A stretch of 64,000 nt of DNA from Cinnamomum chago (Eukaryota > Streptophyta > Magnoliopsida > Laurales > Lauraceae): positions 59,429,501-59,493,500 of the forward strand of contig CP142458.1 of assembly GCA_038049695.1 (NCBI GenBank), given 5' to 3'. Every line of letters begins with the position of its first letter. Positions within the stretch are counted from its first letter, which is position 1. The notes below the pieces were generated by a model. The model was not told the origin of the DNA. It saw only the letters and a list, made by a program, of their open reading frames with translations, and searched no databases. Shown here one piece after another: positions 5,009-53,275 of the stretch. A program made the translations under genes and the position numbers.

Positions 5009-5545
5009 CCATGAATTCATCATCTAATTCTCATGTATTCATGAACTCTGGCAAGAGACAAATCTCCGAATCCACACAACCTCCTCCTTCACGTCCTGGA
5101 TATGAGGTCACCTTCCCATCAAACTTGTTCGCATATCGGCTGCAAACTGCCACAGGCCTCCCCCAACCAAAGTCATTCCCATAAATGTCGAATCTCGGAG
5201 AGCTCCCCATCATCATACTCCAACCATCAAACCTGCTCAGACGATTCAAAACAGGAGCCTTCACCCATGCATCCAAGGTCCCACGGACAACAGCATCTGT
5301 GTGGGTAGCCACGGATTGGTGCGGCAACCATCCAACCCATCCAAGATGATTGGAAAGTAGTTGGGCCACTGTGGTTGTGGCGGTCAGTGTTTGTATGCAA
5401 TTGCCAAAGTAGTGAGGAGGTAAGGGAGGTTGTAACCTTGATCGGTTTCCGGCCGCCTATCGGCAATTGGTCATTTGGTCGGATGACAATTTCCGTGCCC
5501 TAGTAGTGATTGATCTCCACACCAGCGCGCACAAGGCCTAAAAGT
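5009..5545 (-). pseudogene. BAHD acyltransferase exon 2 pseudogene
   Basis: Reverse-strand translation matches the second exon of the intact gene at 6896-7450, including DFGWGRP, a GWSMMMGSSPRF segment and LLPEFMN near the C-terminus. The reading frame is broken: the 3' half (5031-5369) and 5' half (5227-5466) lie in different frames, so at least one frameshift is present. The 5' edge retains an acceptor-like CTACTTTTAG. The C-terminal end is cut off exactly at the LTR boundary (5008/5009), so the gypsy-like element inserted in this copy. Exon 1 is absent. It is a tandem-duplicate relic of the adjacent gene. Confidence 0.85.
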
Positions 5546-8933: not shown

Positions 8934-8944
8934 GTCTCCTGGTA

Positions 8945-8956
8945 TATATGGATACT
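8945..8956 (-). promoter_or_regulatory. Putative TATA box of the BAHD gene
   Basis: On the minus strand CCATATATACC precedes the 8933 ATG by about 12-22 bp and the 8882 ATG by about 65 bp. That spacing places a transcription start between the two ATGs and favours the 8882 start codon. This is inferred from spacing only. Confidence 0.45.
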
Positions 8957-24740: not shown

Positions 24741-24745
24741 AGAGG

Positions 24746-26322: not shown

Positions 26323-26645
26323 ATCTCCCCCTTTGCAATTTGATGGCTACTCTTGAAGCTTGAACTCTCTTTCAATTTTCTCTTCAGCTTGAACTCTTGA
26401 AGCTTGAACTTTTGAAGCTTAAACTTTGGATATTTAAGGAGCTTTGGATAATTAAGGAGCTTTGGACATTTGGGAGCATTTGGATCTTTTGGAGCTTTGG
26501 ATTTTCCTTGCAGGAGCGACGACAAAAGACGACCAACCTAGAAGCTATACACAAAAAGCACTCTAGGCAAAGCTACTCCCCCTCAAACAAAGCAACCCTT
26601 TTTAAATCTTCTCCCCCTCACTTGGTGAACTCTCTCCCCCTTTGA
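26323..26645 (-). promoter_or_regulatory. Multiple polypurine tracts
   Basis: The tract abutting the LTR reads AAAGGGGGAGA on the minus strand (26323-26334). Further GAGGGGGAG/AAAGGGGGAGAG tracts lie at about 26576, 26611 and 26632. Several such tracts upstream of the 3' LTR are a reported Sirevirus signature and prime plus-strand DNA synthesis. Confidence 0.8.
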
Positions 26646-26760
26646 CATCTAATTGCAAAGGAGCCTGCCCATCAAAGATAAAACACATAACCTTGTTAGT
26701 AGCACCTGCTTATAAGAGATATAAAAAAAAATTAGAAACAGGTGAGAAGCCAACAAGAAG

Positions 26761-31578: not shown

Positions 31579-31641
31579 AAAAGCTAAAACTCACTCTAAG
31601 GATTCTAACTCTAGGTTGTTAGACCTAAGCAAGAGCACCTA

Positions 31642-31656
31642 AGCTCTGATACCAAT
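31642..31656 (-). promoter_or_regulatory. Primer-binding site (initiator-Met tRNA)
   Basis: On the minus strand TTGGTATCAGAGCTT follows the end of the 5' LTR. It is complementary to the 3' end of plant initiator-Met tRNA and is the site where minus-strand synthesis starts. Confidence 0.9.
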
Positions 31657-33235
31657 TGAAAGTCCAAGATCGAATCCTAGAGGGGGGGGGGGGGTGAATA
31701 GGGTGAGCTCTAAGACCTAGACCAATTTTTAATTCTTTTAGCTTTTAAGTCTATTATGCTTTGTAGGAGAAATAAGGAAATCAACCAACCATGCATAATC
31801 CATAAAAAGAGAGCATAATAACAATCACCATAACACAAGCACGTATAGTGGTTCGGCCAAATTGCCTACATCCACTCCCGGTACACCTACCGGTATCCAC
31901 TAACTTCAATTAAGGTTTAGGATCACCTCAAACCTTACACACAACAATATGCTTTTCAAGGGTTAGCACCAACCTTTACAACATATACTTTTCAAGGCTA
32001 AGTATGAACCTTTACAACTTAGAACTTTTCTCTTAAACAATATGCCTAATGATGCATGGATAAAGAGAGCAATGAAGTGCAAAGAAATGCCTCTTAAAAG
32101 GCTAGATTGAAAATGAAACTCAAGTTCTAGAACAATGCATGAAAATGACAAAGTCTATGTGAAATGCATTTTCTAGAAGATTACTCTTTCTCTTTTAAAA
32201 GATATGAACTTAAATGATGCAAAGATGTTTAACACATATTTGAGAAAGAGTTATATGTCTAACACAAATGATTCATAATGAAAAGCAACTTGTTTTCAAA
32301 AAGATGATCTAAAGGCTAACAAGTTGATTTTTGAAACAAGAAACTAAAATCATGTGTTTCATAGATCATATGTTGCATTCATAAGTCTCATGTGATTTTT
32401 AAAGAACTAAGCATGTTATGAAGATCAACATCTTAATAGGAAAGCAACTTGTTTATCATGCATTGGAAAATAGATCAAAGATTCAAAACAAAACATGATT
32501 TTGAAAAGAGTAGGATTAAAGGAAGCACACCCATTTGAAGATCAAAGGTTGAATAAGAGGAATGGCTTCATAATCCTTGTGAAAATGCTCCTAAGAAGTT
32601 GCTTAGCCTTGGCCTCAAAGGTCTCTCAAAAATCAGCAACTTTCTTCAACCAAAAAGCCACCTTTTATAAAGTTAAAGTTGCCAACGGCTAGTTCTCGGT
32701 CGACCGAGAAACAGGTCTCGGTCGACCTAGAAAGCACAACGGATATAAATCTGACCGTTGGAGCTACAGTTAAAAATTCTGCAGAAATGACCTGCAGTTG
32801 TCTCGGTCGACCGAGAGGCAGGTCTCGGTCGACCGAGACCACTGCCTGAAACTGCCCAGAAATTGACAATTTAGAGAAACTTGAGGCTTAAGAGGGCACC
32901 TTCCACAGGACTTTCAAACACATCTACCAAGCATTTAATCATGACTAAAAGAAGATGAAAACTGAGAATTTAAAGCCATGAAAACTCCAAAACACAAAAA
33001 TGAATTTAAAGCTAGAAACTTTGGAAAGCTTGGAAGGAGTTTTGAAATAAAAAACTCTAAGAACTGAAAAGGCAACCTGAACATGTAAACCATGCATGAT
33101 ATTTGATAAAACAAAGATTCAAGAAGAAGAAATATGCATGATGCTCCTATGAATAAAGCCATGAATGAATGCGAGAACAAGCTATATGAAAGTGAATGCA
33201 TCCAATCAAATTGCAACAAAACTAAAACTCTAACA
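31657..33235 (-). repeat. 5' LTR of the copia element (1579 bp)
   Basis: It pairs with 24746-26322. The four CTCGGTCGACCGAG-type palindromes are at about 32695-32839. By eye it differs from the 3' LTR at about 33049 (A versus C), at about 33144 (C versus A) and in the G-run length. Confidence 0.95.
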
Positions 33236-33240
33236 AGAGG

Positions 33241-35215
33241 GTGGTGCCCAGGTGTCTTGGAAGGATGGGCGCCCAGGGGGTGGCGCCCAAGTGGACTGTT
33301 TTAAGTTTTGTTGGTTTTGCGTTTTCGAGTTAATTAGAGGTTGAGTTGATTCGGGTTTTAGTTATTTCAGGTTTAAAATGTTTTACTGTGTTGATTCGGA
33401 TTAGTTTGAGGTTTTAATTAATTGACTCAAGCTTTAACCGGGGTGTTTTAGAGCACGAGGAGGTTGGGCGCCCAGGGGGTGGCGCCCAAGTGGCTGGGGA
33501 AAGATGGGCGCCCAGAGGGTGGCGCCCAGGTGACTGTGGAAGGATGGGCGCCCAGGTGACTGTGTTTTGGGTTTTAGGTGTTTTATGTTCTTAGTTCCTT
33601 TTAACCAAAATTAATTAGGCCTTTAAAGGAATTAAAGGTGTTCTTAATGATTTGATGGTTCTGAAATTAATGAATTATGATGTCCTAGTTAATTTAGGGT
33701 TTATCCTACTTAGGCGCTAAATCCGATAACTTAAACTATCTAACTATTATTTTTGGGTTTTCTGGATATCTTTTTAATTCGTTTTTGGTTTCCTCTCTAA
33801 TTTACTAAAGAGTAAGGAAAGAGAAGAAGTGATTTTATGTTTTATAATGTTTTTGGGTTTTTTGTATGACTCTATGATTCAAATGATATGATGTGAAGTG
33901 TGACAAAGATGGTAATTCGGAGTTCAGAACGCATCAAACAACCAAACATATCATTATCAAACAATTTCTAGGTAAACTAAATGCGGAAGATCGGAAGTTG
34001 TGCACGAAAGTGGAAAAATCCACTTGGGCGCCCAGGGGGTGCGCCTATCCTGCTCAGTCAGGGTTTTCAAGGGATCACAACGAATGCGCAAAAACCCTAG
34101 TATTTTCAACACAATTTCCGATATTCAGCGACTGATGTGAATTCCTAATGTGAACTACTAATGATGCAACTAACAAATCTACGAGAAAACGATGCAACGG
34201 GCGAAGGGTTAGAACCCGAACCCAGTCTCAGAAGGGTAGGCGCCCAAGGGGTGGCGCCCAGCCTTTCTGCCAAGGGCTTTTCGCGATCTCTTTGATGTAA
34301 ATGACAATAACGATACTATTAATGCGAGATCTAACCTAGTTATGCAATTAGAGTTACGAAATAATGCAGATCTACTATATTAGAATGAACCTAAACATGT
34401 TTCTAGTATGATGAGATGCTATAATATCAGTTTTAACACAAGCTAATGTAGATCTATGATGCTCAAATGATCCTAAACATATTTCTAAGCATTTATACCA
34501 ATGGAATGTAGTAAAAGAGAGGGGAGATCTAGGAATACCGGTAGATGATGCGTTTTTCAAGTTCCTAGAACGAAGCTTTCGCAAAATCCCATAGCCTTAG
34601 TTGAAGATATGAAAGCCTTCTTCTCTACCTCTTCTTCTTCTTCTCTAGATCTGAAACTCTTTCTCTAATGGTGGCTACCTCTCATTCTTCTTCCTTATTC
34701 TCTATTTTCTCTCTTTTCTTTTTAGGGTAGCTCCCTTTGCTAATGGGGTTAAGAGGGATTATATAGAGGCTTTGGGACGAGTTTAAGAGGGCTAGGGCTT
34801 CATTAATTCGTGCTTCTAGAAGGTCTCACGCATCCCAAGGCGGCTTAAGTTGTTTTAGGGTGAATTAGGGTTTGAAAGAGGGTGGGCGCCCATGGGGTGG
34901 CGCCCACATGGTCTGCGCAGCCTGGGCGCCCACAGGGTGGCGCCCAGGTGGACTAGGCAGTCTGGGCGCCCACAGGGTGGCGCCCAGGTGGACTAGGCAG
35001 TCTGGGCGCCCACAGGGTGGCGCCTAGGTGGTTCGGGTTTGTCTTCGGAGCATGGTCCCTATGTTTGCGTGGTCCCGGGCTACTTTCAAGCCATTCTAGT
35101 GGAATTCGGAAGGTGGGCACCCACCATGAGGTGCCTAGGTGGCCCTGGGCAGTATGGGCGCCCAACATGGGGCGCCTAGGTGGAATTCAGTAGCCTGGGC
35201 GCCACATGGGTGGCG
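33241..35215. repeat. Dispersed palindromic GGGCGCC repeats, right block
   Basis: More units of the same family lie near 33265, 33468, 33503, 33546, 34024, 34230, 34884, 34923, 34968, 35013, 35113, 35156 and 35197. At 34920-35030 three consecutive 45-bp units (CTGGGCGCCCACAGGGTGGC) form a short tandem array. Confidence 0.85.
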
Positions 35216-35854
35216 CCTAAGTGATTTTGACATCCTCTTGGGACAAACTTCGGAAGCCCATAACTTTTGACCCGCTTATCGGATTTGGACGTTCTATATA
35301 TAGTCGGAAAGCTCTCGGAGCGTAGAATCTTGTGGTCTAAAAATCCTAATGGTCAGAGGTCAGGAAAATAAGGGATACTTGGATCAATGATCCCAACCTC
35401 CTAATTCATGTTAATCATATCGTATTTAGGCAAACTATGTGTAGTTTCTCTAAGAATTATCTGAGTGTCTTCTATAAAGTCTGGAAAGGGTTCGGAATAG
35501 TGTTGTAGTCCATTCCTTGTTTGAATAGCGGGTTGGACTCGAGATCTCAACGTGATTCGGCCTTTTCTCTCACAATTTCTATGAATTGTCGAACTAAGTC
35601 TAAGATTATCAACAAGCATCTTCATCGTCATTAATTAATCTCAATTATGTCATTAACCATTCAATTGTGGGTGAAATGGGGGCATCATTATATGTGATAA
35701 ATGTTTAAGGCTATCATAGGGGCCAAAATGAGGTGTCTACACATACTTGTAAGTAATTAGTGACAAAATATTTTGTCATTAAAGGAAGAAATTAGAGACA
35801 AAAATATTTTGTCATAAATATAAGAAATAGAGACGAAAAAATTTTGTCGCATTT

Positions 35855-36476
35855 ACCCCGCCTAACTGAAGGACTTCCCAAGAGGTCACCCATCATAGTA
35901 CTGCTCCTGCTTGAGCACGCTTAACTTTAGAGTTCTTACAATTTTTGGAGCCGCACGATTGTAGAAGACTTCATGCTAAGTTAATACGGGGTTTGACTTA
36001 TAAGTCATGGTTAAGACTTGGATATTTCCGATGCGGGCTAACGGAGACTCATCGTTTGAAACCCATGGTTGACACGCTACGCCCCGTGGTTAAGAGTACC
36101 GCCCGGACCAGGATCTCACATTCTCCCCCACTAGAAATAGAGCCATCCTCGGCTCTGATACCAACTATCACAGCCCCGCCCAACTCAGCATGAAATTGTC
36201 CGCTTTGGCCCACGTGCAAGCGCGAGGACTTCCCAGGAGGTCACCCATCCTAATACTGCTCCCGCCCGAGCACGCTTAACTTCGAAGTTCTTATGATTTC
36301 TGAGGACGCATGGTTTTAAAAAGCCTCACGCTAAGTTAATACGGGGTTTGACTTATAAGTCCTAGGTCAGGACTTGGATATTTCTGATGTGGGCTCACTG
36401 AGACTCACCGTTTGAAGCCCGTGGTTGACACGCTACGCACCGTGGTTAAGGGTACCGCCCGGACCAAGTTCTCACA
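35855..36476 (-). mobile_element. Cassandra TRIM, complete, within CACTA copy B
   Basis: On the minus strand the 5' LTR is 36476-36166, beginning TGTGAGAACTTGG. The initiator-Met primer site is 36163-36151 and the polypurine tract GTGGGGGAGAA is about 36131-36121. The 3' LTR is 36120-35855. Both LTRs hold 5S-like sequence (about 35867-35930 and 36226-36288). The 3' LTR shows the same truncated end and junction with TAAATGCGACA as the copy at 1-371. It has no ORF. Confidence 0.88.
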
Positions 36477-37019
36477 GTAGCAGAGACTCAGAGAGGTAGG
36501 TGTACCTGGCGGTGGCAGACTCCTGGATGGAGGAGGATGGGCACAAATGATGGTGATTGGTGATGGTGGTTGCGTTTGGGAATTCTAGGCGAAAGAGACT
36601 GAGAGAAGTAGAGATGAGAGGGATCACCGATCAGGGATGGGTCTGCACTGTGCGTGTTGATGGAGGGTGATGATGATTGATGGGGATCAATGAGCCATGG
36701 GGTTGTTGCTTGAGACGATGGGTGGGAGATGTTGGAAAAGGATTTTGGAAAATGGGGAAAATGGTTCTTCTCTCCTCTTCTGGAAAAGGGTTTTGGAAAA
36801 GGGGGAAAAGAGTTTTGGAAAAGAGAGACCGGGATAGATGGAGGGACAAAGGGGGAAATGGGTTTTGGAAAAGAGGCGTTGGATTGGGGTGGGGGTGGGG
36901 GTGGGGGAGGGGGATGGACGTTAGGGCCTTGGGGGTCCATTTTAGTCATTTTAAAGGCTTTTCCAAAGCAATACTTGTAAGAGAGGAATAGGCTCAAGTG
37001 CGAACGAAATTGGTGTCAC
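36477..37019. other. Non-coding internal part of CACTA copy B
   Basis: The left half has mixed composition. 36720-36920 is strongly purine-biased on the plus strand (GGAAAAGGG and GGGGTGGG runs), which leaves frames open on both strands. No protein family is recognised, so the ORFs here are not called. Confidence 0.5.
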
Positions 37020-37615
37020 CGCAAATGAAATTGGCGCCTTATTTTGGTGACCAAATATTTTCGTCTTCCATAACTTATCCTTAATAGTAACGAATTATGT
37101 TCGTCACAAAAACAAATTATATTTTGTGACAAAAATTTTCGTCTCCAATGAGCTAAAATAATTCGCGCTAAAGCAAATTAAATTGGCGTCTTATTTTGGT
37201 GACGAAATATGTTCGTTGTCTATAACTTATCCTTATTGGTGACGAATTACGTTCATCGCAAAACAAATTATATTTTGTGACAAAAATTTTCGTCTCCAAT
37301 GAGCTAAAATAATTTGGCACCTTATTCTAGTGACGAAATATTTTCGTCTTCCATAACTTATCCTTATTAGTGACGAATTAAGTTCGTCACAAAAACAAAT
37401 TATATTTTGTGACAAAAATGTTCGTCTCCAATGAGCTAAAATAATCCGCGCCAAAAGCAAATGAAATTGGCGCCTTATTTTGGTGACGAAATATGTTCGT
37501 CTTCCGTAACTTATCCTTATTGGTGACGAATTACGTTCGTCGCAAAAAAAAAATTATTTTTTGTGACAACAATTTTCGTCTCTAATGAGCTAAAATAATT
37601 GGCGCCAACTTTTTG
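37020..37615. repeat. Subterminal array of CACTA copy B, about 150-bp units
   Basis: Four units each contain TTATTTTGGTGACGAAATAT, AACTTATCCTTATTGGTGAC, TATTTTGTGACAAAAATTTT and TCCAATGAGCTAAAATAAT. The repeated GTGACGAA motif in both orientations fits transposase-binding subterminal repeats. Confidence 0.85.
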
Positions 37616-37768
37616 TAGACGAAATTTTATTTTCGTCTCCAATACTTTTGACAAAAATGAAAATAGACGACAAAATTTATATTTCGTCCCCTTTGGGTGT
37701 TCTTTTAAGACAAAAAAAAAATTCGTCTTCAGATTTCGTCACAACAGCCTAAATTTCTTGTAGTGATT

Positions 37769-38122: not shown

Positions 38123-38689
38123 CACTACAAAAAAGGACTTTTAGTCTTGCTTTTGAATTGAGCTTTTGTGTCGCTTTTACAATAAAGTGACACAGTATGG
38201 TCTGATGTGTCACTTTAAAGGAGGAGTAAATAAGGAGGAGGTTTGTTGTGTCACTTTTCTATAACCCGACACACACAAAACAAATCTATATCTCGTTTTA
38301 TTCTTAAAGTGACACTAGCGGAGCAAATTTTTAAAATAATCCAAACTAAATATTGAGGATGGTTTTCCCCACTAAACAAAAGTGACACAAGAAGTTTGGT
38401 TGTTATTTTCTTTTGGGAAATCTACCCCATATAAAAGGGGCAGTTTTGGTCGACACAATGCCCATATCTACCCCATATATATTTTTATTTATTTATTTTC
38501 TACCCATATTTATTTTTTTATTTTTTTATATAAAAGCGGCAGTTTTGTTTTTTATTTTATTTTATTTTTTATATCTCAATGCCCATACACATGCCATACC
38601 CATGTATAAAAATTGCCATCATACACGTGCCATACCCATATATATAAAAATGAGAACAAGAAGAAACCCTTGTTGGCCTCCTAAGTCCT

Positions 38690-40159
38690 AATCGGAAACC
38701 TTTTTCGCTGGTCTGCCCGCTCTCATCGATCCACCGCACGGACCTCGAGCCATCGATCGCCGAAGGCCCAGAGGCGGACCCAAGTGATCGTGATATGGGG
38801 CGGTCGCCCCAGGTCGATTTTGAGATTCTCCTTAAAATGGTATTGGCCCGTGGCCCACGCCTCACATGTCTGAAAGGAGCGCCCCATATCTAAAAGGGTG
38901 GAACGAAAAAAAACCCCAACTCTTCGATCTTCCTTTCGTCTTTCAACCTTCCTTCTTCTTCGACCTCAGAGTCTCAGACCCTTCGTCCTTTGATTGCACG
39001 AAGCTCTCTCGCTGTTCTGGTCAGACGTCTATGAGTATGGCGATCTTTCAGCTTTAGGTAAATCTCTCTCTGTCGCCTCTCTCTCCCTCACTTTCCCTCT
39101 CTGCCTTCTCCGTTTTTAATGTCTAAGTATGTCGCCTCTCGCTCCCTCTCACCCTTCATTAGGCACTGCACAAAGAAGTTAGGGTTCTCAGTTATGTTTG
39201 TTTGATTTCTGTTTCATGGTTATAGGTTAGGGTCGTTTTGATTTAGGGCTTTTTGTTTATGATATTCTTTGTTACATTACCTGATTTTATTTAGGGTTGT
39301 TTTGATGGCATATGATTGCATACTAATTGGTGTTTGGGAAATGGAAATGGGAAAATGGCGATGTTAATTACATCGGTTATGTCTGGTTATGATAGTTCCA
39401 GTTTGAAGAAGTCTCTGAGCCCCTCATGATCTTAAAGTTTCATTGGCTTTGCTCTCTCTTTTGTTTTCTTTCTAGAAGTGGGATTTACTATATTCTGGTT
39501 GAAATAACAATGATAGCATTTTTTCTAAGATTTATTCTTAATAGCCGATTTTTGGGGTTTTGGGTATGCATCAATTAAACATGAAACGGAGCCCCTAAGA
39601 ATGATCTGATGGATTATATAGTTAATGGGAATCTGATTGTTGATAGATTATTTTCCATGAATGAATTACCAACAAGGACATTTTCAAATTTGTTTGGTGG
39701 CATAGTCAGCTCCTTAATTTTTTGCTTAAGGTTTCCAAGCACTTCTTTGTTCCAAGTCTTGAATCATATGTTGTTCCAAAATCCCCATTTTAAATTAGTT
39801 GAATGAGAAATGTCCTTTTTTTTTCTTATAATGTAGGACTTGTTACATTATTTGATGTTGTTGTTGTAATGGAGGGTGAAGTTAGGTTATATTTTCCTTT
39901 GCCGGTTTCATATGTGTGTTGATTGGGTGGAGTTTGGTTTTTGATTGATGAGCTTTTTTTTTTTGGTTCTTAATTAGCATGAACACCAATTGTTTGATGA
40001 AATGCTACTAAAAGTTATTATTATAAGTTGTGCTTGTACTAATCTCTAAGCCAGATAGTCTAATCTTCTAATATTTGTAGAAAGTCAACCCCAAATGAGT
40101 TGTAGTTCTGCCTTCTCATTTGGAACCACATTGGTGGTGTTTGTTTTGTGGCTAAGATT
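38690..40159 (+). other. Captured leader/intron-like sequence in element C
   Basis: Pyrimidine-rich segments (CTCTCTCTGTCGCC, about 39062-39160) follow a plausible donor (TCAGCTTTAG|GTAAATC, 39055), then 1 kb of T-rich intron-like DNA. A hAT-like end CAGAGGCGGACCC lies at about 38769. No protein was recognised. Confidence 0.35.
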
Positions 40160-40299
40160 GTACACTACTAGAGATTTGAGCATTGGCTCATGAGAAGGCG
40201 GGCGGCCGCTTGCGGTGGATGCAAAAGGTCCATTAGCGACCGCCATAAGCGGCCGCAATAGACCAAAAGGCGGTCGCTAAAGGCCCGTATATTCATCCT

Positions 40300-40559
40300 C
40301 GCGCCAAGCCCTCTCTTTTCCTTCCCACTTCTTTTTCCCCTGCTCCCGCGCTCTGCATCTCCTGCTCCTTCTCCGCGCGTCCTTCTCCTTCTCTGCCTCG
40401 ATCGCTCATCTCTCTCTCTCTCTCCCTTTCCTCTCTCTCTTCTCTCCCTCTCCTTCCCTTCTCTCTCTCTCTTCTCTCCCTGCGTTCAGTACCCTCTCTC
40501 TCTCTCTTCTCTGCCTGCGTTCAGGACCAGCCGCCAGCGCTGATCCTCCCTTCCCACTG

Positions 40560-40594
<35 letters not shown>

Positions 40595-40800
40595 TTGCAC
40601 GTCCCTCACCTCACGGCTTCGTCTCCTTCGGCATCTCCCTCGCCAGCGCATCCTCATTGTCTCTCTCTCTCTCTCCGGCCGGCATCCATCAGGTATTCAT
40701 CACCTCACATGCACACAAACCCTAAATCCCTAAATCACTTTCTCTCTCTGCCTCTCTCTCACACATCAAACCCTAAATCCCTAAACTTCTAACTCTATCC
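40300..40800 (+). promoter_or_regulatory. Captured TC-rich leader sequence
   Basis: Long CTCTCTCT runs and repeated AACCCTAAATCCCTAAA motifs resemble a plant 5' UTR, with a possible donor CATCAG|GTATTC at about 40691. It may derive from the 5' end of a captured gene. Microsatellite expansion contributes. Confidence 0.4.
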
Positions 40801-40889
40801 CTGATTTTTTTTTAATTTTATCTTCTCATATTTCCATATTTTTGTGATCTGATTTAAATGTGGTGTAGATGATCATACATGAATCTTAT

Positions 40890-41095
40890 ATTATGAATGT
40901 TTATGTTAGAGGCTGATGAGCAATGGCTTAACAGAAGCACCTTATATTATGAATGTTTATGTTCGAGGCTGATGAGCAATGGCTTAACAGAAGCACCTCT
41001 CATGCCTGAATTTGTTTATGTTAAGAGGCTGATGAGCAATGGCTTAACAGAAGCACCTCTTATGCCTGATTTCAATATTTCACAGTGGAAGGGAC
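40890..41095 (+). repeat. Three 60-bp tandem units with an open frame
   Basis: Three copies of GAGGCTGATGAGCAATGGCT followed by TAACAGAAGCACCT stay open as RLMSNGLTEAPLMP-type repeats. The protein is not recognised and the frame is only 92 codons, so it is recorded as a repeat. Confidence 0.6.
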
Positions 41096-42529
41096 GTGGA
41101 TCCAAGGAATCATGGTATTTCATTCTTTATACAAAGAAATATAACATAACCCAGGTTGCAGTGTTGTGTCCATAGCTGCTTCATTCTTGGTAGTGTTACA
41201 GAAAGAAGTGTTGTTCTAAGGGCCCTCTTTGTATATTGAGCCACTAGTCGATAGGTGTTGATCCTCTGCTTTTCCAGTTTGATTAATTATAGTTGTCGTC
41301 TTCAGGTATTCTTTAATTTCCCATGTTTCTTCCTCCCTTACCCACACCTGTAGCTGTTTGTCTTGGTGGAGAGGAGGTTGGCTATTGTTATATGATAATT
41401 TTTTATATAACCTACTACATCAAGGGAATCATGTATCATAGACTTCTGGTATATGTGCAGCAGATTGCCTTTTCGCGGTTTCTGTTTAGGTTTTCTTTCC
41501 CCTTTCTCCAATTAGGTTCCATGTTTCTTCAATTTTTCTCTGTGTGCCATTTGGTTCAGAATTTGATGTTTTGTTTCTCGATTTGAATAGCTAAAATTTG
41601 AACTAGGGTGTTTCTGGAATTGATTTTGAGAGGGTTTTTTTTTTCTTTTTTTCTTTTTTTTTTCTTAACAATTTGATGAATGTAGAAGCTTATTGGTGAT
41701 CTAGGTCTTATGTTTATATTACTTGGGTTTTGTTTGTATTTGATTTTATTGGTTGGGTTTTGATTCATGGATGATTGTAGCTCGTAATCTTATGTTTATC
41801 GGTTGCTTTCATAATAAGAAGTCAAGGTCGTTTGCTAATAGGTATTTAGACTCTTTGACATGGTGTTTCTTATATGTTTGTATTACAATGTCCATTGAAT
41901 TTGCATCTGCCTTATTTTATGCTTTTATTTTACTGATTTTTAGATCTTCATATCATATAAAAAAAATGGACTCCATGAAACAATTATTATCAGGGATGGC
42001 AGGCCTGTGTGGATCACCTGGTTCCTCTACTGTGATCAATCTAACCATTCACAATCACTACCTCCACCCATGTCTATGAATTGTTGACATGAGATGAATA
42101 TGGTAGGGTCACAGCACATATATTTACATTATAAAAATGAAGTATTTGATATGATATAATAAGTAGCCTATTTTGCCTGGCATTATAGTTGATCATGCAA
42201 ATTTTGACACATATCTGACTTGATCTAATGCTTATGATCTAGGCAATTTTGAGCACCTCAAAACAGTACCTCCCTCGATCGGATGATTCCTATTCTTTGC
42301 ACAAAGTCAAGGACAGGGTCATAGGGAAAACTTTCAAACCCTCATCCTCTCATGCTTCCATGTGGTTTCCATAGCTTGACCGTTCCGACCTTAGGAATTG
42401 TGAGCTCATTCCAAAAGTTGACTCAATGAATGGGGCATGAATTAATTTTTAGTGCCTTCCACAAGTTTAGGCATGTTTTCAAGCTGGGATGGCCCAGGCA
42501 GAAGCTTTTATACATGTCAGGTACTTATT

Positions 42530-42734
42530 CACTACACCAAAAATCGAAAATTGGAACGGAAAAGCGTTCCTAATCCTCCCGTTCCTAATTCGTTAAACCG
42601 TTCCAATTTCCGTTCCAATTTGGTACCAACCGTTCCTAATCCAAATTGGAACGGAAATTGGAACGGTTTAACGGATTAGGAACGGGAGGATTAGGAACGC
42701 TTTTCCGTTCCAATTTCCGATTTTTGGTGTAGTG
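42530..42734. mobile_element. Palindromic CACTA-type MITE (hairpin), 205 bp
   Basis: It reads CACTACACCAAAAATCG... to ...CGATTTTTGGTGTAGTG and is flanked by ATT (42527-42529 and 42735-42737). Nearly the whole element is one inverted repeat: two 93-94-base arms with about two mismatches around a loop of about 18 bases. A transcript would form a long dsRNA hairpin. It is nested in element D. Confidence 0.92.
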
Positions 42735-43384
42735 ATTGGACCTAAAACTTTGTTAACTGTATTCAAGCCAATGAATCCTGAGGACTTTCTATCTCCAACA
42801 TTGAGAGAGACTGTCTTTGTGATAGAATCTTTCATTGCCTTGGTGGTAGCTTTCATTTTAATGAAATCTTTTTGTCAGCTAGGAGAGAGACTATGGAAGT
42901 GAAATCTCACCATACTTTTGAGGTAGACTAATGTCTATATAGCCAAACAAGAGGATAGAACTTGCTTGTACGTGCATCTGATTATTTATTTATTTATTTA
43001 TTTTATTTTATTCTGAGCTTTCTTTCTCGTAGTTCCTCTCAGTGCTGAGAGGGCTCTCTTTTCATAGTATTGCCTTGTTATTTCTCGGGCTAGAAGACGG
43101 ACACCTATAATGTTCCTTGGTGTGATTAAATTATATTTTCAAGTTCAAACCTCATGGACTGATAGAAAGTATACTGAAATAGGAAACAGAATTATGGTTG
43201 GTTGATATCCTCCGATACATTTAGTCTTTTAATTATATCGCATCTGCAGTAGCCAATATGACAGTCTAGATCATCCAATCAGCAGCCACCAATATGATTC
43301 ATAGGCTGATGTGGTTTTTATTTATTCATTTAAGATTTGTTGTTGTTTTGTTTATTCTTCTCTCTTTTTTATTCCTTCGTTAGT

Positions 43385-43460
43385 TTTTTTATTTGATAAT
43401 AGAAAATTCATTAAAACAAAGAAAGGTTTACAATCACAACAAACAGAGCATGTAGTAGGA
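43385..43460 (-). mobile_element. LINE-like 3' end relic
   Basis: On the minus strand the sequence AATGAATTTTCTATTATC followed by an A-rich tail resembles the 3' terminus of plant LINEs, which often end near a ...TTAATGAATTT... motif. It is short and degenerate. Confidence 0.3.
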
Positions 43461-43997
43461 GTTTGTCAGTTAGAGTCGTTGGATTTCAAATCCATTTTGA
43501 GCATTCTTAATCATGATTCTTAATTTTTAACCACTTATAGAAATACAATCATTGGAATTTACATACATAAGACGAACATGCCCTAGAGGAATGAAGATTC
43601 AGAGAACAGGTTTTAAGTGCACCATCATTTTCTTTTAATGTTTTTTGAATGGTGGTAATAAAATCTTTATTTTGGCTTTTCTTTAAGAGTTCACTGTTGC
43701 AATAGGGCACTACTACTATACTCTAGTCTAGATCTATATAGCATCTTGGTTTGTTTGTGAGAGATGCATACAAGCTTGTAGTGTTACTGCATAAGGCTGT
43801 GAAACCACTATGTGCAGCTTAAATTCCCATTTTTGTGTGTGCTTCTTCAATTCTAATTTTTTTTTCTCTTATGTTCAGGTTTGTTTGCATTCAAGTGTAG
43901 TGTTATAGCCACTTCGCATTTGGTACAGCCACTGACCGCGATTTTCATCCATGTCAGTCAGTGTGTCAATTGTTACTTTTATATTGCTCTAATCATC

Positions 43998-44379
43998 AAT
44001 TGAAATCAGCTCTAATGAACGCGTCATCCCATCATCTAATGAAGTTAGAAGTCCACCTCCCTCTTCTTCAGTTAAAAAGCCAAAACTTCTGGATGGTTCT
44101 GTGCCTAACAAAATTAAGGCAAAACATGAAGTTAAAAAAGAAGCAAAGATGGATGTGCCTAACAAAATTAAGGTAGAGAAGGAAGTAAAAAAAGAAGCAA
44201 AGATGGATGATGATGATGATCACATACCAATTTCCCAGAGAGTGAAAAAATCGGTTTCATTAGACAATCGATCCTTATCAAAGAAACCAACAAAGGTTGT
44301 CACCTCCCAATTGAAGAAAACAAACAAGAAATCAAAAAAGATTATAAAAGCTTCTAAATACTCAAAGTATCTCAAATAA
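43998..44379 (+). pseudogene. Captured exon encoding a lysine-rich segment (topoisomerase I-like?)
   Basis: The frame runs VIPSSNEVRSPPPSSSVKKP, then two VPNKIK..KEVKKEAKMD repeats, an acidic DDDDD and a basic tail ending KYSKYLK with TAA at 44377. The P/S-rich start, the KKEAKMD acidic/basic alternation and PISQRVKK resemble the disordered N-terminal region of plant DNA topoisomerase I, but no catalytic region is present. The assignment rests on low-complexity similarity and is weak. It lies inside CACTA element D, so it is probably captured. Confidence 0.3.
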
Positions 44380-45405
44380 CAGTCAGTTTGGGTATTGGTG
44401 GAATTGCTAATTAAGCTTTGCCATGTGTTGATAAGAGCCCTTAGCATTGTTGGAAGGTGCTCATTGTTGCAACTACAATCTTAAGGCATTGAGACATGTT
44501 ACCCATAAAATTCAATTTCTGTGTGTGTCTGCAGTATTATTTTTCCAACACTTGACATGACTTTTTTCACTAAGTGAAATCATATCAGCATTCAGATTTG
44601 ATGGTGATTTAGTTTGATAGACTGGAAAGGCAGCATAATGCTTTGTGCTTGTGGTCTTTTATTCTGCGCTTCATGAAATGGATTGTGGAATATAATATAT
44701 AATGGTCTTTTTTTCATATTTTTCAACCCACTTACGGTACATTTACAAGTACTAGTGATTACAAGGATAGGTAGTTTGCTGAACTTGTCCTCGAGTCCCA
44801 TGGATTTTCAGGAGGAAAGTAGTTTGCTAATTTATAAGTACCATTAAAAAAAAAGGGCAGCTTGCTAATTTTTATGCCTGGTGCTGTTTGCACGTTATTG
44901 GAGACGATTCATCCCAAATCTCTTCCAATGAGAAGACCGGAGAGTGACACATTACCTGTATACTTCATAATCTTCTGATTTGCATTATCTCTTTGCAGAT
45001 GAAGAATGCAGATAGTGCTTGGACTTCTTTTAGTATCTTGCACCTGTTCGCATATTTTTCAATCTGTGCCTGCTTAATTCATGAATGAGTTATAAATGGT
45101 TTGTCCTATAATTATCTCATTCATGACTTGAGGCAGGAATCAAAATTCAGTTACTAATATGACTTTTTTTGTGGTTGGTGTCTTGGTGAAACACACTTAC
45201 CATACCAATGTGTAAATGGATGGCAAATTCATGTTATTTCCATTTACACTTCTTTAGTTCCTCTTGGAGAATTCATGTTATTTGCCATGAATGGCAAATT
45301 TTTCAAGCTTTTAATATTTCGATTGACATTCTTTTAGCCCTAGATTTCCACTTCCTAAAATTTAAATGCGAAGAGCAGTACCAATTTTGTTTGATTTAAT
45401 TGCAG

Positions 45406-45482
45406 TTACAGTTGTTGATAGTGGCATTAAGGCGCTGGAAGTTCTTGGCTTGAATGAGAAGGTTGAATCTCCTACTGTCAAT
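45406..45482 (+). pseudogene. Captured internal exon, family unknown
   Basis: A 77-bp open segment (TVVDSGIKALEVLGLNEK...) sits between a good acceptor (TTTGATTTAATTGCAG) and a donor (AAT|GTGAGTC). It looks like a genuine plant exon but is not recognised. It lies within element D. Confidence 0.4.
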
Positions 45483-46199
45483 GTGAGTCAATTGTACACA
45501 ATCTGTTTTCTTAAATTTTTTGCTTCTCTGCACACTTTACTCATCAATATCTTTTACTTCTTACTTTCTTTTCTTTTCTTTTTTATCCCGATCCAAGTTC
45601 CATGAATACAAGTATGCAGAGACTAAAATTCTGTATTTTTTTATCCAGAGGCAGGGCACACACACAATGCGATGCCATATATGTCCCCTGAAATTTAGAT
45701 ACGACATGTATAATTACATTCGGTCACTTTCCTATTTCATCTTAAATTAAATCCCCATTTTGAAGTGGTGAGTGGAGTCATAGCCGATGGGGGTTGAGTC
45801 AAGAACGAACTGCACTTGTGGAATCTCTTGGTTCTTTTTTATTTTATCTGTTTTTCTTGATTTGTGTATGTTGTTGATTTTGATTGCAAAGGATTGGAAA
45901 GGAAAAGAAGGGGAAATGGGAGCTTTGAAAAGGGTCAAATGTTCTCTTAATGCAACTTGATTTCTGCTAATACTTAGTCTTATGAGGCCTGAAGTGAAGT
46001 AATACAATTTATTTGAAAAGATGCTGAGACAGACACCATTAGCGCTAGTTTCAACAATCTCATGCATGCAATTTTTGCTTAAAAACAGAGGGGCCTTGTT
46101 TTGATCTGTGTCAGTGGTTCTATGGTTGCTGGTTTTCAAATGTATGAAACGTTTGAAACTGATGCCCCAAAACCCAGGGAACAGTTTTGACATGGTAGA

Positions 46200-46345
46200 A
46201 CCACACCTTAGCCCAGTTTGTATTCTTGGCCTAGTAGCAGTACCTTTGGGTGAATTACAGTCAGCCATGAACATCTTGCTTGGCAAGAAATACTTGGCCA
46301 ATGTAGCTGCTGATTTTGGTCTCTCAAGGTCAAGGCCACCTTATA
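46200..46345 (+). pseudogene. Receptor-like kinase domain scrap
   Basis: The frame reads SAMNILLGKKYLANVAADFG followed by LSRSRPP. It resembles the catalytic and activation loops of plant receptor-like kinases (NILLDxxYxAKVADFGLSRS) with small insertions. No upstream HRD motif or downstream APE motif is in frame, so only about 25-30 codons are recognisable. It is probably a captured fragment in element D. Confidence 0.4.
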
Positions 46346-47147
46346 TCATCCCCATTTGTTAATTACTAATCTTTTAGGTAGCTTTATGTTTCTTCATCCA
46401 CAAAGCTTTAGAAGGCACCATCTAACACAGAAATCGGATGTACACTTGTTCAGGGTATTTGCTTTAAGTCCTCTGTAATTTGCTTGAGAAATTATATTAG
46501 AATACGTGCTCGAAGTCCTTTGTAATTTATCTGTGAAATTATATAAGAGTAGGACTAGAAGACAATAATAAGACTCACTCTCCAATCCCAAATCTCATCA
46601 ATCAACCCCACTGTCTTGCGTCATTTGTCAATATTCACTCTCCCATCATCCTTCATTAAGCATCAATGTACTCCAAACATCAATATTGGGAGGCTTCCCT
46701 ATATGGTGGCATTCCTATAAAGGTGAGAAAGGTAATTTCATGGAGTTGGAATGTTAATGGGGCGGAAGGGGTACTTTGTCATTGTGAATTTGCTATCCTA
46801 CAAATTCCTTCTAAGATTGTGGTGGAGAGTGGCTCCTTGAATACCAGCTCTTGAGTGACACACGTCTACCATGCCCCTTTGGTCTAATGGCTTCACCAAT
46901 TGTTTGGCTAAGCAAGGGGTGCATACGACCCTTCCTTTTGTTGCATTTTTTGTAGTTTGTATCTCTCTTTGGGAGAATACATAACCATGATAGACATCAT
47001 CGGAATAGAAACCAAATTTTTTTTTACTCTGTTGTACTTGTGATCAATTTAATGGTAGGCTTTTCTCAAGTTATAGTGAAATTTGATTTTCTGTCAATAA
47101 TATAGGTGAAAATTCTCGGCTGGGTTCTCAAATTATAGTGAACTTTT

Positions 47148-47450
47148 GTTATGTTTTTTTTTTTTAAACAAAATTCATTAAGATCAGAGAAACAAAAAAA
47201 AAAGACCCTTGACCTGGGGGAAATGATCCCTTTCCCACAACCAGTCCAGGGAATAACCATCCCAAAAGAAGCTTTTGCCAAGGCAGAGAATAATACTTGG
47301 CCAAAACATGAGCAACCTCATTATCAGTCATGGGAACATATAGAAACTAAAGAGAATGGGATTTGGGATTCTCGTTTTTCCAAAAATCTCCCGCAAGCAA
47401 ATGTTGGGCCATTTATTATTAGCCCTTTTTGAACTTATTTGTGTCATTGT
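47148..47450 (-). mobile_element. LINE/SINE-like 3' fragment with poly(A)
   Basis: On the minus strand the sequence ends CTTAATGAATTTTG followed by a run of about 14 A (47153-47166). The body is non-coding. The structure suggests a truncated poly(A) retroelement. Target duplications were not found. Confidence 0.35.
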
Positions 47451-48065
47451 GTATTACTTAACCATCAATTTCTAGGAAAAAAAATGAATGACGGATTAGG
47501 ATATTCAAGTCTGGGAGATTCTTGGTGTAGATCCCTTCCATAATTGTTTGAACAACATTCTAGTATGGCCCATAAACTTACTCCTCTTTACAATTCTACA
47601 CTTCACAAATTTACTTCATGCAGATGGGAATTCCTGCCTTTTTATGATCATCAATCAAGGACACAAACCCTATCACACGTTTGGATGTTGAAAGAAACTT
47701 TGGGTGAATGAGAAATTAGTTGGAATTTGGAATTTGGCTTGCATGCAATCAGTCTACCTTTAATTAGTTATGGGAAAGCAGAAAAGCAGCAAAATTTTGA
47801 CAAGAATTCTATAGAAGATATGTATTGTGTTGTAGATTGACAACCTTTAGACACAGTCTTCAGTTTATACATTCAAAATCTGGAATATTGCTTTGTTCCA
47901 CTGTGATGAACTGGGAAATGCTTTGCATGCATTTAAGGCATTGATCCCAGAAATGGGAAATTTTTTTAAAGGGGGGGAATTCTAAGCTAGTGAGAAATGG
48001 TCTTATTTGTTGAATATGCTGTTCCTGTTTATGAGTTTAATTGTTTGCTTTTTTTTTTTGTTCAG

Positions 48066-48885
48066 ACAATAATTGATCATGAGAAAGGAGGGATTTCTTT
48101 TCTATGGAGCTGGTCATATTGGAGCACTTTTGTGCTTACATGGTATGCTACTTATGAACTTGGAGCTATGATTGGTTTGTTCACATCTCTTGAGCAACTA
48201 TGCATAAAGTCATTGGGACTTGTTTGACCAAGTAGAGTATCAATTTTTTACTTGCGCGAGTTGTGAAAACCTTAGCAATGTTTTGATTTAGTTCCTTGGT
48301 TGATATGGATTTGATTTGCTCTCTCTCTCTCTCTCTCTAAAAGTTTCCAATGTCTGAACTTTGACTGTGAATGGAATTCATTTGGTGCTCCATGTAGGCT
48401 AGACTTGACAGAGTTGCTAGCCAGCAATCCCAAAAACAATCGCTGCACAAGTAACTCCTGGTGCGTTGCATGTTCCTGATAAATATAATATGAGGGAAAC
48501 AGCCGATTCTAATATTACAATCATAGTCTGATACTCTGATTTCACTTAGAAAGTTATTCAACAGCCGCACACTTTTCTATTTAACTTCTGAGTTCTGATT
48601 ACTGTTATCTCTATAAATCATTTTTGTCTTTTGTTTTTTAGACAAGAAATGCTCTAGTATTTTTGTAACTTATCGATGCTTACAACTACACATTCATTAT
48701 TTTTATTATGATATTTCTCTATGCAGGGTAGTGGTGCCTGCTATTCAAGGTTATGAAGATGCAGGGGATTTCACAGTGACTGAACGACTGAAGACTAGCA
48801 TACATGCGAACTTAATCTTCTATTTAAGTGTGGGGTCAATTGGACTTTTTGGACTTGTTCTCCTCATAATTATGCACAGAATTTG
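48066..48885 (+). pseudogene. LMBR1 domain-containing protein 2 homologue fragment (two exons)
   Basis: Exon 48066-48142 (acceptor TTGTTCAG, donor ATG|GTATGC) encodes TIIDHEKGGISFLWSWSYWS then TFVLTW. Exon 48727-48885 (acceptor CTATGCAG, donor TTG|GTTTGC) encodes VVPAIQGYEDAGDFTVTERL, then KTSIHANLIFYLSVGSIGLF and a membrane-like GLVLLIIMHRIW. Splicing joins them in frame at T-W. This is the N-terminal third of the plant LMBD2-type multi-pass membrane protein. The first exon (MWVFYLI-type) and everything downstream are missing, so only an internal piece was captured by CACTA element D. No stop codon is present within the two exons. Confidence 0.8.
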
Positions 48886-49675
48886 GTTTGCCTTCTATCA
48901 ATTGACCCCTGTTTAAATTAAATTGATTTCATTTTGCATGGACCCACATTTTTATAATGTAACAACTGTAATCAAGAAAGCAATACTTATTGTGGCAACT
49001 TATCATATATGATGCAGACACCTTCTATCATGGAGAATATTTTTCTTTTTCCTGTAATTGTAATGGATATATTTTATTGAAACTTTTGTAATGTTTTGAA
49101 TGCAATTAATATAAGACTTTCTTTTTTTATTTGTAATTTTAATTGATGGTAGTAGTTGTATATATTTAGGCTTTGTTATTTGTAATTTTAATTGATGGCA
49201 GTAGTTGTATATACTCAGGTACAGGTACAGGTATAAAAAAGGGAAAATCTTAAGAAAATACGGATTTTTTTAAAAAGAAAAAAAAGCCAGTGGCGGTCGC
49301 TAAAAGTACTTTTAGCCGTCGCTAATAGTTTCAAAAATTAAAAAAATAATAAAAATTAAAAAAAAAAATAATGTATTAGCGACCGCCAGATGAGTATTAG
49401 CGACCGCTAATACTTAAAAAAAAAAAAAAAAAAAATTCAAAAAAATGAGGCATTAGCGACCGCTATATGTAGTATTAGCGACCGCCATGGCGGTCGCTAA
49501 AAGTCCAAAAAAAAATTTTAAAATTTACATCGCGGTCGCAAAAAATATTAATACCTTTAGCGATGAGGTTTTCGCGGCCGGCGCTTGGCGGTCGCTAAAG
49601 AGTATTAGCGACCGCCAATTGACTTTTAGCGACGGCAAGTGGCGGCCGCTAAAAGTCAATTTTCTAGTAGTGGTA

Positions 49676-51229
49676 GGGAGGAGTTGGTAATGATGATGAA
49701 GTTTTCGTCTTCCACAGAGATGCTACACTTGGAAAAAGAAAGAGAAAAACAAAAGAATGGGATGGAAGTTTAATTACAAATTTTGATTGCCACCATGCAG
49801 CAACATAATGGAGCCAACATCCAGGAGATGAATGATTTGTTCCAGCAGGGTTGTGCAATATATGAAAAGTATATGAGCAAAACACCATAAATAATTGAAT
49901 GGGTTGGATTGCTTGATCAGTATGCTTTGCACACCGCGCACCAACATAATGGACCCAAGACCCAGGAGATGAATGATTTGGCCCAGCAGGCCCCATGTCA
50001 TGTATGACAGTGGTGATGATTACTATGTGGATCTCAACAGGCCTCCAATTACCTGAACCCCAAAAAAAAAGAGACATAACCAGATTGATCATCTGGTCCT
50101 GGGTCCGACCCGGTGTAGTCCCAAATATCTGATTGATGTGTAATATATTTATCTGTAAATATATGCTAACGACAAGTAATTAAGGCCATCAAATGGTGCA
50201 GATGACTGGTCTGAGTACTCATATTTTTGCCTGATTTGTGCTAGCTAGGTTTACTCATGTCCAGAGAGGTTTGTATAGATTTAGCTGTTAAGTTTAATGT
50301 TACTTCTTCTAGTGCTCTGTTGAGTGATTCAACTCTGATCTAAGCTTCTTTGATAAGTTTGGGCTTTTGTTGGTGTTTCTGTGTGTGACTCGATGTGGTC
50401 TATGTTGTTTGTTGTTTGCTTTGATTTTATATCTTAATGAACTCTATTTACAAAAAAACGAAAAAAAAAATTAAATAAATAAGAATCAGCAAAACCCCAC
50501 TCTGGCCACCGGTCTTACCCACAATGACACAGTTCAACCCTGGCATTGGCAAAAGATGAAAGCTCTATGAGAATTCTCCTGCATACTAATTGCTGAGTGC
50601 ATGTGTTGGATTTGCATTACACAAAAACCTAATCATGAAAAAGGGTGGGAAGATCAAATGATATTTGGAGATCATGCAATGTGACCGGGCACACCTGTAC
50701 CCGCATTCCTATTCAATGCATTATGGCTGCTGTTTGATGACACAAGCATTCAAACAAGAAAAGGTTCAACTGTCACCCATATCATTATTAGTGTTATCAT
50801 CATACATGATATGGGTAAGACTTAAAAGATTCCATCATAATCTCTAACAAAGGAAGATTCTAACAACTAGGTGGTCATGGGCCGGGCAAGGCTGAGCCTA
50901 GCCTAGATTAAACTGAATTTGGCCAGAATTTTTGTTTCAGTCGACCGCGGTCCGGCCGGCTAGCTTTAGGAGTAGCCTTTGGTTTGATATCCTTCCAAGT
51001 AGACCCCATGGCTAAGGGTTAAAAACCGCTGCTTGGATACCCAAAAAACCCAAATAAAAAAAAAAAAAAAAAAACCCATCATGGGTCCAATATTTAAACC
51101 CATTTTTAATTCGGGTCTGGTTTTGTTTCCATAGATTTCATGCTTGACAACTTGGTTACCTGATGCCACTGCCATATATTAATAACAGTTATGATAAAAT
51201 GGAATGTGATTTTTATTGTGAATACTCTT
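49676..51229. other. Non-coding part of element C with diverged duplication and LINE relic
   Basis: Two diverged copies of about 90 bp (49790 and 49937; both with CCAGGAGATGAATGATTTG) are present. 50220-50470 looks like a LINE 3' end (TATATCTTAATGAACTC followed by an A-rich tail). No gene was found. Confidence 0.45.
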
Positions 51230-51235
51230 GATGTC

Positions 51236-51380
51236 TTTGGTTTCCATTCAATGTATTATTGTTAAGGAATGCATGTCATCACTGTCAGACTCCATCCTCC
51301 TAAAGATTTTGGTCTGGGCTTTTGAATTCTCCAGAGGCCTTAGACAAGGAGATTCTTTATCCTATGCCAATGCATTATTG
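51236..51380 (+). pseudogene. LINE reverse-transcriptase relic
   Basis: The frame WAFEFSRGLRQGDSLSYANA matches the conserved S-R-G-L-R-Q-G-D-P-L-S motif of plant L1-type reverse transcriptases. The frame is open for only about 60 codons and no other RT motif was found. Confidence 0.6.
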
Positions 51381-51718
51381 GGGCTGAAGTTCTACCCATT
51401 TTCTGGTTATGGTTCAAAGTAATTGCTAGAAGCCCAAGTGCTACCCATGTGTTTTGAGGTGAACACTAGTTTCATTTTCATTAATACTTCAGTAAGTGAC
51501 ATTATAAGGGACTTGAGGACACTTTAGACGAATATTGCAAGGCTTTTGGATGGTTAGTTTTGGATTCGATAAATCAGACTTCTATTATAGTAAAGGTGCG
51601 CGTAATAGAAGATGTAGTACTAGCTAGTTTTCTTACACAAAAGAATGAGTAAAAGTTCCTTAGCTAGTTTTCTTACACTAATGACTACACTAACTTGCTT
51701 TTCCTCGAAACAGGTTAT

Positions 51719-51832
51719 GGAGTTGGCCAGCATAAAGACATACACCACCAAAGAAATAGATAAGATCCAACTCGAGTTTATCGACTTCATCCAAGGATTT
51801 CTTCCTTTATAAAGGTATACCTAGGAGTTCAA
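51719..51832 (+). pseudogene. Candidate exon, unrecognised
   Basis: After an acceptor-like TTTTCCTCGAAACAG the frame VMELASIKTYTTKEIDKIQL then EFIDFIQGFLPL runs to TAA. It looks coding-like but short. The family is not recognised. It lies inside element C. Confidence 0.25.
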
Positions 51833-52046
51833 TTTGTATAGTTGAGAAGATTTCATAGTAAGGCTTAGTGACGATACACTTAATTTAATGTGCATTTCAG
51901 TTTTTAGGCTTAGTGACTACCTGTTTCTTCATCGGACTATCATCAATGTGAATTGATTCATGCATTTTTGTCTGCATCATGCACTTGGGTAGGTGGAGTT
52001 TTTTAGTTCATGATGCATTTCACACTTCATCACATATCATTAGGAA

Positions 52047-52067
52047 GGGGGGGGGGGGGGGGGGGGG
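52047..52067 (+). repeat. Run of 21 G
   Basis: It is an uninterrupted homopolymer. It could form a G-quadruplex, or its length may reflect sequencing or assembly error. Confidence 0.9.
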
Positions 52068-53275
52068 ACTGTCGACTGTGATTAACTTGCATAGTTTTTA
52101 GTACGTTAATGCTTATTGGGTGTTAGTTGTAGATGGTGATAGGAATACTAGGTCATCATATTAGTGAATTATTGATTGCTCCTAGTTTGCTTGCTACTAT
52201 TATCTTCTGACATGTGAACTGCTAGTGTTTTAATTGCTCTTTCTCTAGTGACAAAATGTTTTCTCTTTAACATGAATCCTTGATATTGTTGGTTAAACTC
52301 TCATTCTTACTTGATTATATTATTGATACATAGTCAAATTGTTATTATTTTGTAGGTGAATGAAGAACTTAATTAAACGGAGATGGAATGCCTTTTGCTA
52401 AGTGGATCTACTAATTAGGTTAAGTTAATTTTGGTTAGTTAGGGATTTCCGGAAATTGTTTACAATGTAGCTTGCCTTTTTTTGGATGCTTTTGTGAAGG
52501 TTTTGGATTATGTCGTGATGCTTTGGTTACAAATTCGAAGGTTAATGTAAATAGTTTGGATTATGGATGGATTCAAATTGGCTATGTTTTGAATAGTTTG
52601 TTTGATTCAGTGCGTGGACGAGCAAGTACGTTCCTTAATGTGAATGGTGATTAATTTCCAATTAATGAAATGGTTCTTATTGAATGTTGCTATCTATATT
52701 TTTTTGCATCTTTTGTAAGGCAGGTTTAGTGATTTGAAAGTGTATCCATACTGCAGCATGTTATTAGTAATGTATATATTGCATTTTTATTTAAAAAAAA
52801 AATTGAAAGTATCTCGCTTCTATGGAAACTGTCACAACTGATGACTACTTGTGTCACTTTTGGTCCGAAAACAACATATTGATCACTGCTTTTGAAAAGG
52901 GAGACAACAAAGTTATCGAATTGTGACGCTTTTAAGTTATTTCAGTGTCACTTTTGGGTTTAAAGTGACACAAGTAACCATTTTTTTATGTCACTTTGAT
53001 AACAGAAACTGACACAACAAATGTATTTCTTGAGACACTTTTACGAACTTTTAGTGACGCCGGCAGATAAGACGCTTGCATAGTAATCAGAAAAGCGACA
53101 CAAACCACTTTTTAAGACACTTTAAAAGTGACTCATTAAGACATTTTTTTTGTAGTTACTGGACCCAACTCAAAATTTGAAAGATCTTATCACTCATGTG
53201 CTTTTGGTATATGGAATATGTATTTTCAACTCAACCCACAATAAGCTCGTGATAAGCAAATTGATAGTCACTTAC

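Follow-up and report, generated by a model that had tools for sequence, protein, structure and literature searches.

The 64-kb stretch of Cinnamomum chago DNA analysed here (contig CP142458.1, positions 59,429,501 to 59,493,500; hereafter the window, in whose positions all coordinates are given) holds a CACTA-type transposable element, called element C below, that carries pieces of unrelated host genes: two exons of an LMBD2 gene with the intron between them, a rearranged part of a DNA topoisomerase I gene, a probable scrap of a protein kinase and some weaker candidates. The borders and repeats of the element are as follows.

40163..49672, plus strand: CACTA element C, 9510 bp
40160..40162: GTA target duplication, left copy
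49673..49675: GTA target duplication, right copy
40163..40172, plus strand: left terminal inverted repeat, CACTACTAGA
49663..49672, minus strand: right terminal inverted repeat, TCTAGTAGTG
40233..40280: GCGGTCGCTAA subterminal repeats of the left end, two copies in opposite orientations
49293..49652: GCGGTCGCTAA subterminal repeats of the right end, 12 matches at one mismatch or fewer, in both orientations

Element C has the hallmarks of the CACTA superfamily: its terminal inverted repeats start with CACTA and match at 10/10 terminal bases (CACTACTAGA), its flanks are a 3-bp target duplication (GTA/GTA), and closely spaced direct and inverted copies of a subterminal motif, common to both ends, stand just inside them. 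The window was scanned for CACTA...TAGTG pairs lying 100-20000 bp apart, with perfect terminal repeats of at least 10 bp and identical 3-bp flanks. Three were found, at 21900-37765, 40163-49672 and 42530-42734; the mean number expected per 64 kb, from 100 first-order Markov sequences, is 0.01. The subterminal motif GCGGTCGCTAA has 14 matches in the window at one mismatch or fewer, 10 of them exact, and every one lies within element C; 0.17 would be expected, and none of 100 shuffles yielded 14. Local alignment of the left end of the element with its right end scored 61, the maximum among 200 mononucleotide shuffles being 32. Since end pairs are this rare and the subterminal repeats cluster in this way, the ends are not coincidental: the borders of element C are genuine, and lie exactly where an earlier note on this DNA, which described clean CACTA ends with a GTA duplication, had put them. 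It could still be argued that this is plain host DNA, for example the decayed remains of an LMBD2 pseudogene beside other genes, as most of the 9.5-kb interior has no recognised coding match; but the scarcity of end pairs, the grouping of all 14 subterminal repeats at both ends within the borders, and the nature of the cargo itself, with LMBD2 present solely as internal exons and topoisomerase I internally deleted, make this explanation extremely improbable.

Host gene pieces carried by element C

The identified and candidate pieces, in their order along the element, are these.

40285..40692, plus strand: TC-rich leader, C+T content 82%; TATA-like string at 40288, possible donor CAG|GTATTC
43991..44032, plus strand: DNA topoisomerase I fragment, residues 21-34 of P0002, 14/14 identical
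44035..44376, plus strand: DNA topoisomerase I fragment, residues 313-426 of P0002, 103/114 identical
45406..45482, plus strand: open stretch of 77 nt between AG and GT signals; splicing would put it in frame with the LMBD2 exon
46249..46359, plus strand: probable protein kinase scrap, NILL...DFGLSR region, weak
48066..48142, plus strand: LMBD2 exon, residues 57-82 of the Persea protein P0021, with an intron acceptor before it
48143..48726, plus strand: LMBD2 intron, GT...AG, retained between the exons
48727..48885, plus strand: LMBD2 exon, residues 83-135 of P0021, with GT next at 48886

The LMBD2 gene is represented by internal exons only, corresponding to residues 57-135 of 743. The peptide spliced from 48066-48142 and 48727-48913 matches the Pfam family LMBR1 (E 2.3e-18); it has no match among PDB sequences. 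Of 365 candidates in a protein search with the second exon region, 320 matched at E<=0.001, and the closest by identity among the best 120 of these 320 was Persea americana P0021 (100%), followed by Cinnamomum micranthum f. kanehirae P0022 (96%). When P0021 was compared with the window by tblastn, residues 57-82 fell at 48066-48143 and residues 83-135 at 48728-48886, with 79/79 residues identical, the remaining matches lying outside element C at E 1.0 and 4.0; P0022 is identical at 77/79 residues. A pyrimidine-rich acceptor stands upstream of the first exon and the intron is kept between the two, so the two-exon stretch was captured as genomic DNA, not as complementary DNA. LMBD2 exons with their intron, as read in the earlier note, are thus confirmed.

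Perfect agreement with the Persea protein over 79 residues is a pointer to a Lauraceae host close to Persea, and suggests a recent capture in that lineage. For a neutral rate of 1.5-3e-9 per site per year and no change at an estimated ~175 replacement sites, the Poisson upper bound would put the capture no further back than roughly 6-11 million years, provided that the piece evolves free of constraint. The lowest E-value among the LMBD2 matches listed belongs to P0020, Camellia sinensis TEA_019978, annotated as LMBD2-type, in which the captured exon region occurs twice near the N-terminus; this doubling may reflect an annotation error or a further rearranged copy.

The lysine-rich exon noticed earlier can now be given a name: the open stretch at 43993-44379 comes from the N-terminal region of DNA topoisomerase I. 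Of 552 candidates in a protein search with it, 18 matched at E<=1, and each of the 18 carries PF02919; the best match is P0002, a Trinity transcript in EukProt (E 2.0e-47), and the named matches include DNA topoisomerase 1 of Actinidia, Coffea, Hibiscus and Mangifera. Comparison of P0002 with the window by tblastn, on which together with the protein search the identity rests, resolved two pieces in different frames, two bases apart, with about 278 codons lost between them; this shift of frame interrupts the coding sequence, which runs into a stop at its end. The second piece and P0002 share a repeat of some 17 residues where P0003, P0004 and P0006 have a gap, which suggests that P0002 is closely related to the parent. 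That the fragments together reflect one continuous host gene order is unlikely, since the genes are present only as internal pieces and the topoisomerase has suffered a large deletion.

Coding content of the element as a whole was surveyed through its stop-to-stop open reading frames of at least 45 amino acids, of which 85 overlap element C and 60 were scanned against Pfam. No transposase family was among the 11 families listed at E<=1, and LMBR1 (2.8e-09) was the only strong one; the transposase of an autonomous CACTA was thus not recognised in these 60 of the 85 frames, and on that basis element C is classed as non-autonomous. Weak matches to Elongin_A (0.0046), RIF2_lid (0.016), DUF4220 (0.03) and others (at or above 0.083) were taken as chance. 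Rescanning 13 of the 60 frames singly placed RIF2_lid on the strand opposite the topoisomerase piece, and NADPH_Ox (0.22) at 41744-42076; the Elongin_A and DUF4220 matches were not located among these 13.

The remaining pieces are less certain. The stretch at 46249-46359, which reads NILLGKKYLANVAADFGLSR, probably derives from a protein kinase, judging by its peptide: its PDB matches at E<=10 number 42, and every one is a kinase (lowest E 0.01; the plant kinase FERONIA, 1.3), and the reversed peptide has none. It has no Pfam match at E<=10, hence the kinase-like scrap of the earlier note is retained as probable only. The 77-nt stretch is open and flanked by AG and GT signals, as had been described for an unrecognised exon, and unrecognised it remains: none of 83 candidates matched at E<=10 (about 5.8 billion proteins, with candidates limited to about 330-1050 aa), nor were there any PDB or Pfam matches. 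The TC-rich leader is likewise real; it may be a captured host promoter and 5' untranslated region, or element C's own leader. A pyrimidine-rich stretch and a possible donor (39058) also occur near the left end of the enclosing element, B (see below), less marked at 63% C+T. A tandem 56-nt unit present three times at 40885-41056 (start-to-start distances 56 and 60) was judged chance; the open stretch that holds the copies, 40897-41172, has no Pfam match at E<=1 and a best PDB E of 0.089.

If spliced, the 77-nt stretch and the LMBD2 exons would share one frame, open for 113 codons up to a stop. This raises the prospect that the cargo is a chimeric gene, made of the leader, the 77-nt exon and the two LMBD2 exons, all sharing a frame and maintained by selection; in its favour one could cite the plus-strand orientation of all identified pieces, the absence of any residue change in the 79 of LMBD2, and the transcription and conservation of captured genes described in wheat (PMC4290129). 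An in-frame join has, however, a one-in-three probability by chance, zero residue changes are also expected from recent capture, the 77-nt stretch is without relatives in the searches above, and the topoisomerase piece is broken by its frame change and stop. We consider such a gene very unlikely.

Nested and neighbouring elements and genes

Besides element C, the same 64 kb holds three CACTA-type structures (A, B and D), and a retrotransposon with long terminal repeats (LTRs).

38123..53157, plus strand: outer CACTA element B, which contains element C; target-site duplication ACT, TGTCACTTT subterminal repeats
42530..42734: nested palindromic mini-CACTA, element D, inside element C, 205 bp; target-site duplication ATT, CACTACACCAAAAATCG ends
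21900..37765: third large CACTA-type element, A, left of B; 15-bp terminal repeats, target-site duplication ATT
24746..33236, minus strand: LTR retrotransposon within A; LTRs 99.7% identical over 1580 bp

Element B starts CACTACAAAAAA and ends TTTTTTTTGTAGTT, matching at 11 of the 12 terminal bases and differing at the very last; its ends were identified by eye, having been missed by the end-pair scan since the right end is without the last base of TAGTG. All nine TGTCACTTT sites in the window lie within 310 bp of these ends, and the pyrimidine-rich stretch inside it lies near 38900-39150. Because C lies within B, it would have entered later, when B was already present. Location of element C in a host-gene intron, as for the soybean element Tgm-Express1, was considered and rejected: the flanks show the ends of the second CACTA, B.

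Element D is a near-perfect palindrome, with a predicted fold of -165.6 kcal/mol compared with a mean of -48.1 for 200 shuffles; if transcribed, it would form a long hairpin, a possible source of small RNA. It and the nesting of C in B are additions to what the earlier note described. In the stack as a whole, one CACTA sits within another, beside a third, and encloses a small palindromic one, so that the relative order of the insertions can be read at a single place.

Element A is interrupted by the LTR retrotransposon, which has a 5-bp duplication (AGAGG) and one open frame of 1609 aa and is a recent insertion; we presume it to be of Copia type. No convincing host gene or transposase family was found among 49 open reading frames of A (at least 60 aa, retrotransposon part left out) and of B outside C (at least 50 aa), the best Pfam match, VirB3 at 0.0054, being unconvincing although within the threshold of E<=0.1. 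At the left edge of the window, positions 1-733 on the minus strand hold a shortened relative of A, cut by the edge, that matches 22155-21900 (94%) and 36225-35741 (92%).

Host genes are also seen outside the elements. Minus-strand pieces of an acyltransferase gene, which we take to be of the BAHD kind, lie at 7947-8951 and 5034-5456 (Pfam Transferase, 2.6e-50 and 4.8e-25), and 5009-5577 and 6925-7490 form a duplicated stretch, 77.5% identical. To the right of element B, an exon of a WD40-repeat gene occupies 55393-56829 on the plus strand (Pfam WD40, 6.9e-07); two more open stretches, taken for possible exons, have no Pfam match at E<=1.

Origin of the cargo

Captured coding DNA thus lies between the terminal repeats of an element that is non-autonomous as far as 60 of its 85 frames go, and it comes from more than one locus, LMBD2 and topoisomerase I being unrelated protein families. 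We conclude, with a probability of roughly 0.92, that element C is a non-autonomous gene-capturing CACTA transposon of the Pack-CACTA type. The core of the earlier note, that a CACTA element carries fragments of host genes unrelated to one another, therefore stands; of its "several" genes two are demonstrated and a third, the kinase, is probable, and the count does not extend to the 77-nt exon or the TC-rich leader.

Several observations weigh against this conclusion. The perfect terminal repeats of element C are 10 bp only, and the element is known from a single copy, in a 64-kb window. CACTA target duplications are given as 5 nt in rice and maize (PMC8903248); they are given as 3 bp, in agreement with element C, in PMC8978399. 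The topoisomerase piece has no Pfam match at E<=10 and, against the PDB, nothing below the E of its one match, 3.1. The transposase scan took in 60 of the 85 frames of at least 45 aa.

A transposase supplied by another CACTA element would bind the terminal and subterminal repeats and mobilise the whole unit. The cargo would have been acquired where two insertions of the same family came to flank host DNA and then moved as one unit; alternatively it may have entered by copying during gap repair. Trimming of the captured pieces, as in the topoisomerase deletion, would have come later, and the complete unit would then have jumped into element B, already in place. A transcript crossing element C could splice the cargo as cassette exons, by analogy with Tgm-Express1, because the identified cargo is on the plus strand and LMBD2 keeps its splice signals.

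As to the first of these routes, joining of neighbouring insertions is supported for Pack-TYPE elements (PMC8903248; PMC13317346). The rival account accepts the CACTA element and takes its cargo to be filler DNA, left by repair of double-strand breaks or gaps in an older CACTA: the pieces are short, come from unrelated genes and in one case carry an internal deletion, and gene duplication by double-strand-break repair at CACTA insertions is cited in PMC4290129. Published Pack-TYPE families speak for joining instead (PMC8903248), and the single copy of element C offers no feature that separates the two routes. We regard filler as a possible source of the cargo, if a tentative one and at clearly less than even odds.

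A young chimeric gene, with the pyrimidine-rich stretch as promoter leader followed by the 77-nt exon and two membrane-spanning LMBD2 exons in one frame, might be transcribed and retained, and the nested CACTAs might act as a factory of new exon combinations; this is a long shot. With element C read as a Pack-CACTA transposon, the locus is a concrete one at which to ask if exons, once captured, undergo splicing, attract small RNAs against their parents, or disappear.

Relation to known gene-capturing CACTA elements

Published accounts describe CACTA elements that have captured genes in soybean, Arabidopsis, maize, wheat and Chenopodium, and cite cases from sorghum and Ipomoea (PMC1947982, PMC8903248, PMC4290129, PMC8978399). 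Among the matches listed in the open-licence literature, no title or abstract beginning refers to a gene-capturing CACTA in Lauraceae, and the paper on the avocado genome (PMC9531333) does not mention CACTA in its main text.

The soybean element Tgm-Express1, as described in PMC1947982, resembles element C in being a CACTA that carries exons and introns of unrelated host genes with splice signals kept, five gene fragments in its case and at least two in C. It differs in size and setting, being 5.7 kb long in intron 2 of F3H, whereas element C is 9.5 kb and lies inside another CACTA; and its cargo is found in spliced transcripts, whereas element C, with splice signals present, is described here from its DNA sequence. 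The Pack-CACTA and other Pack-TYPE elements of Arabidopsis, rice and maize (PMC8903248) are described with the 5-nt target duplication, in contrast to the 3 bp of element C, whose host is outside the species treated there and which is known from one copy.

On wheat chromosome 3B, 140 capture events are reported in which CACTA elements hold pieces of host genes, as does element C (PMC4290129); those captures were recognised through repeated families and come with expression data, unlike element C, read from the DNA sequence of one copy. The CACTA elements described in Chenopodium (PMC8978399) share with it terminal and subterminal repeats, a 3-bp duplication and captured gene fragments, and differ in keeping transposase domains, none of which was detected in the 60 of 85 frames scanned in C. 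Set beside these systems, element C is a further example of a known gene-shuffling process, and a clear case of it in Lauraceae.

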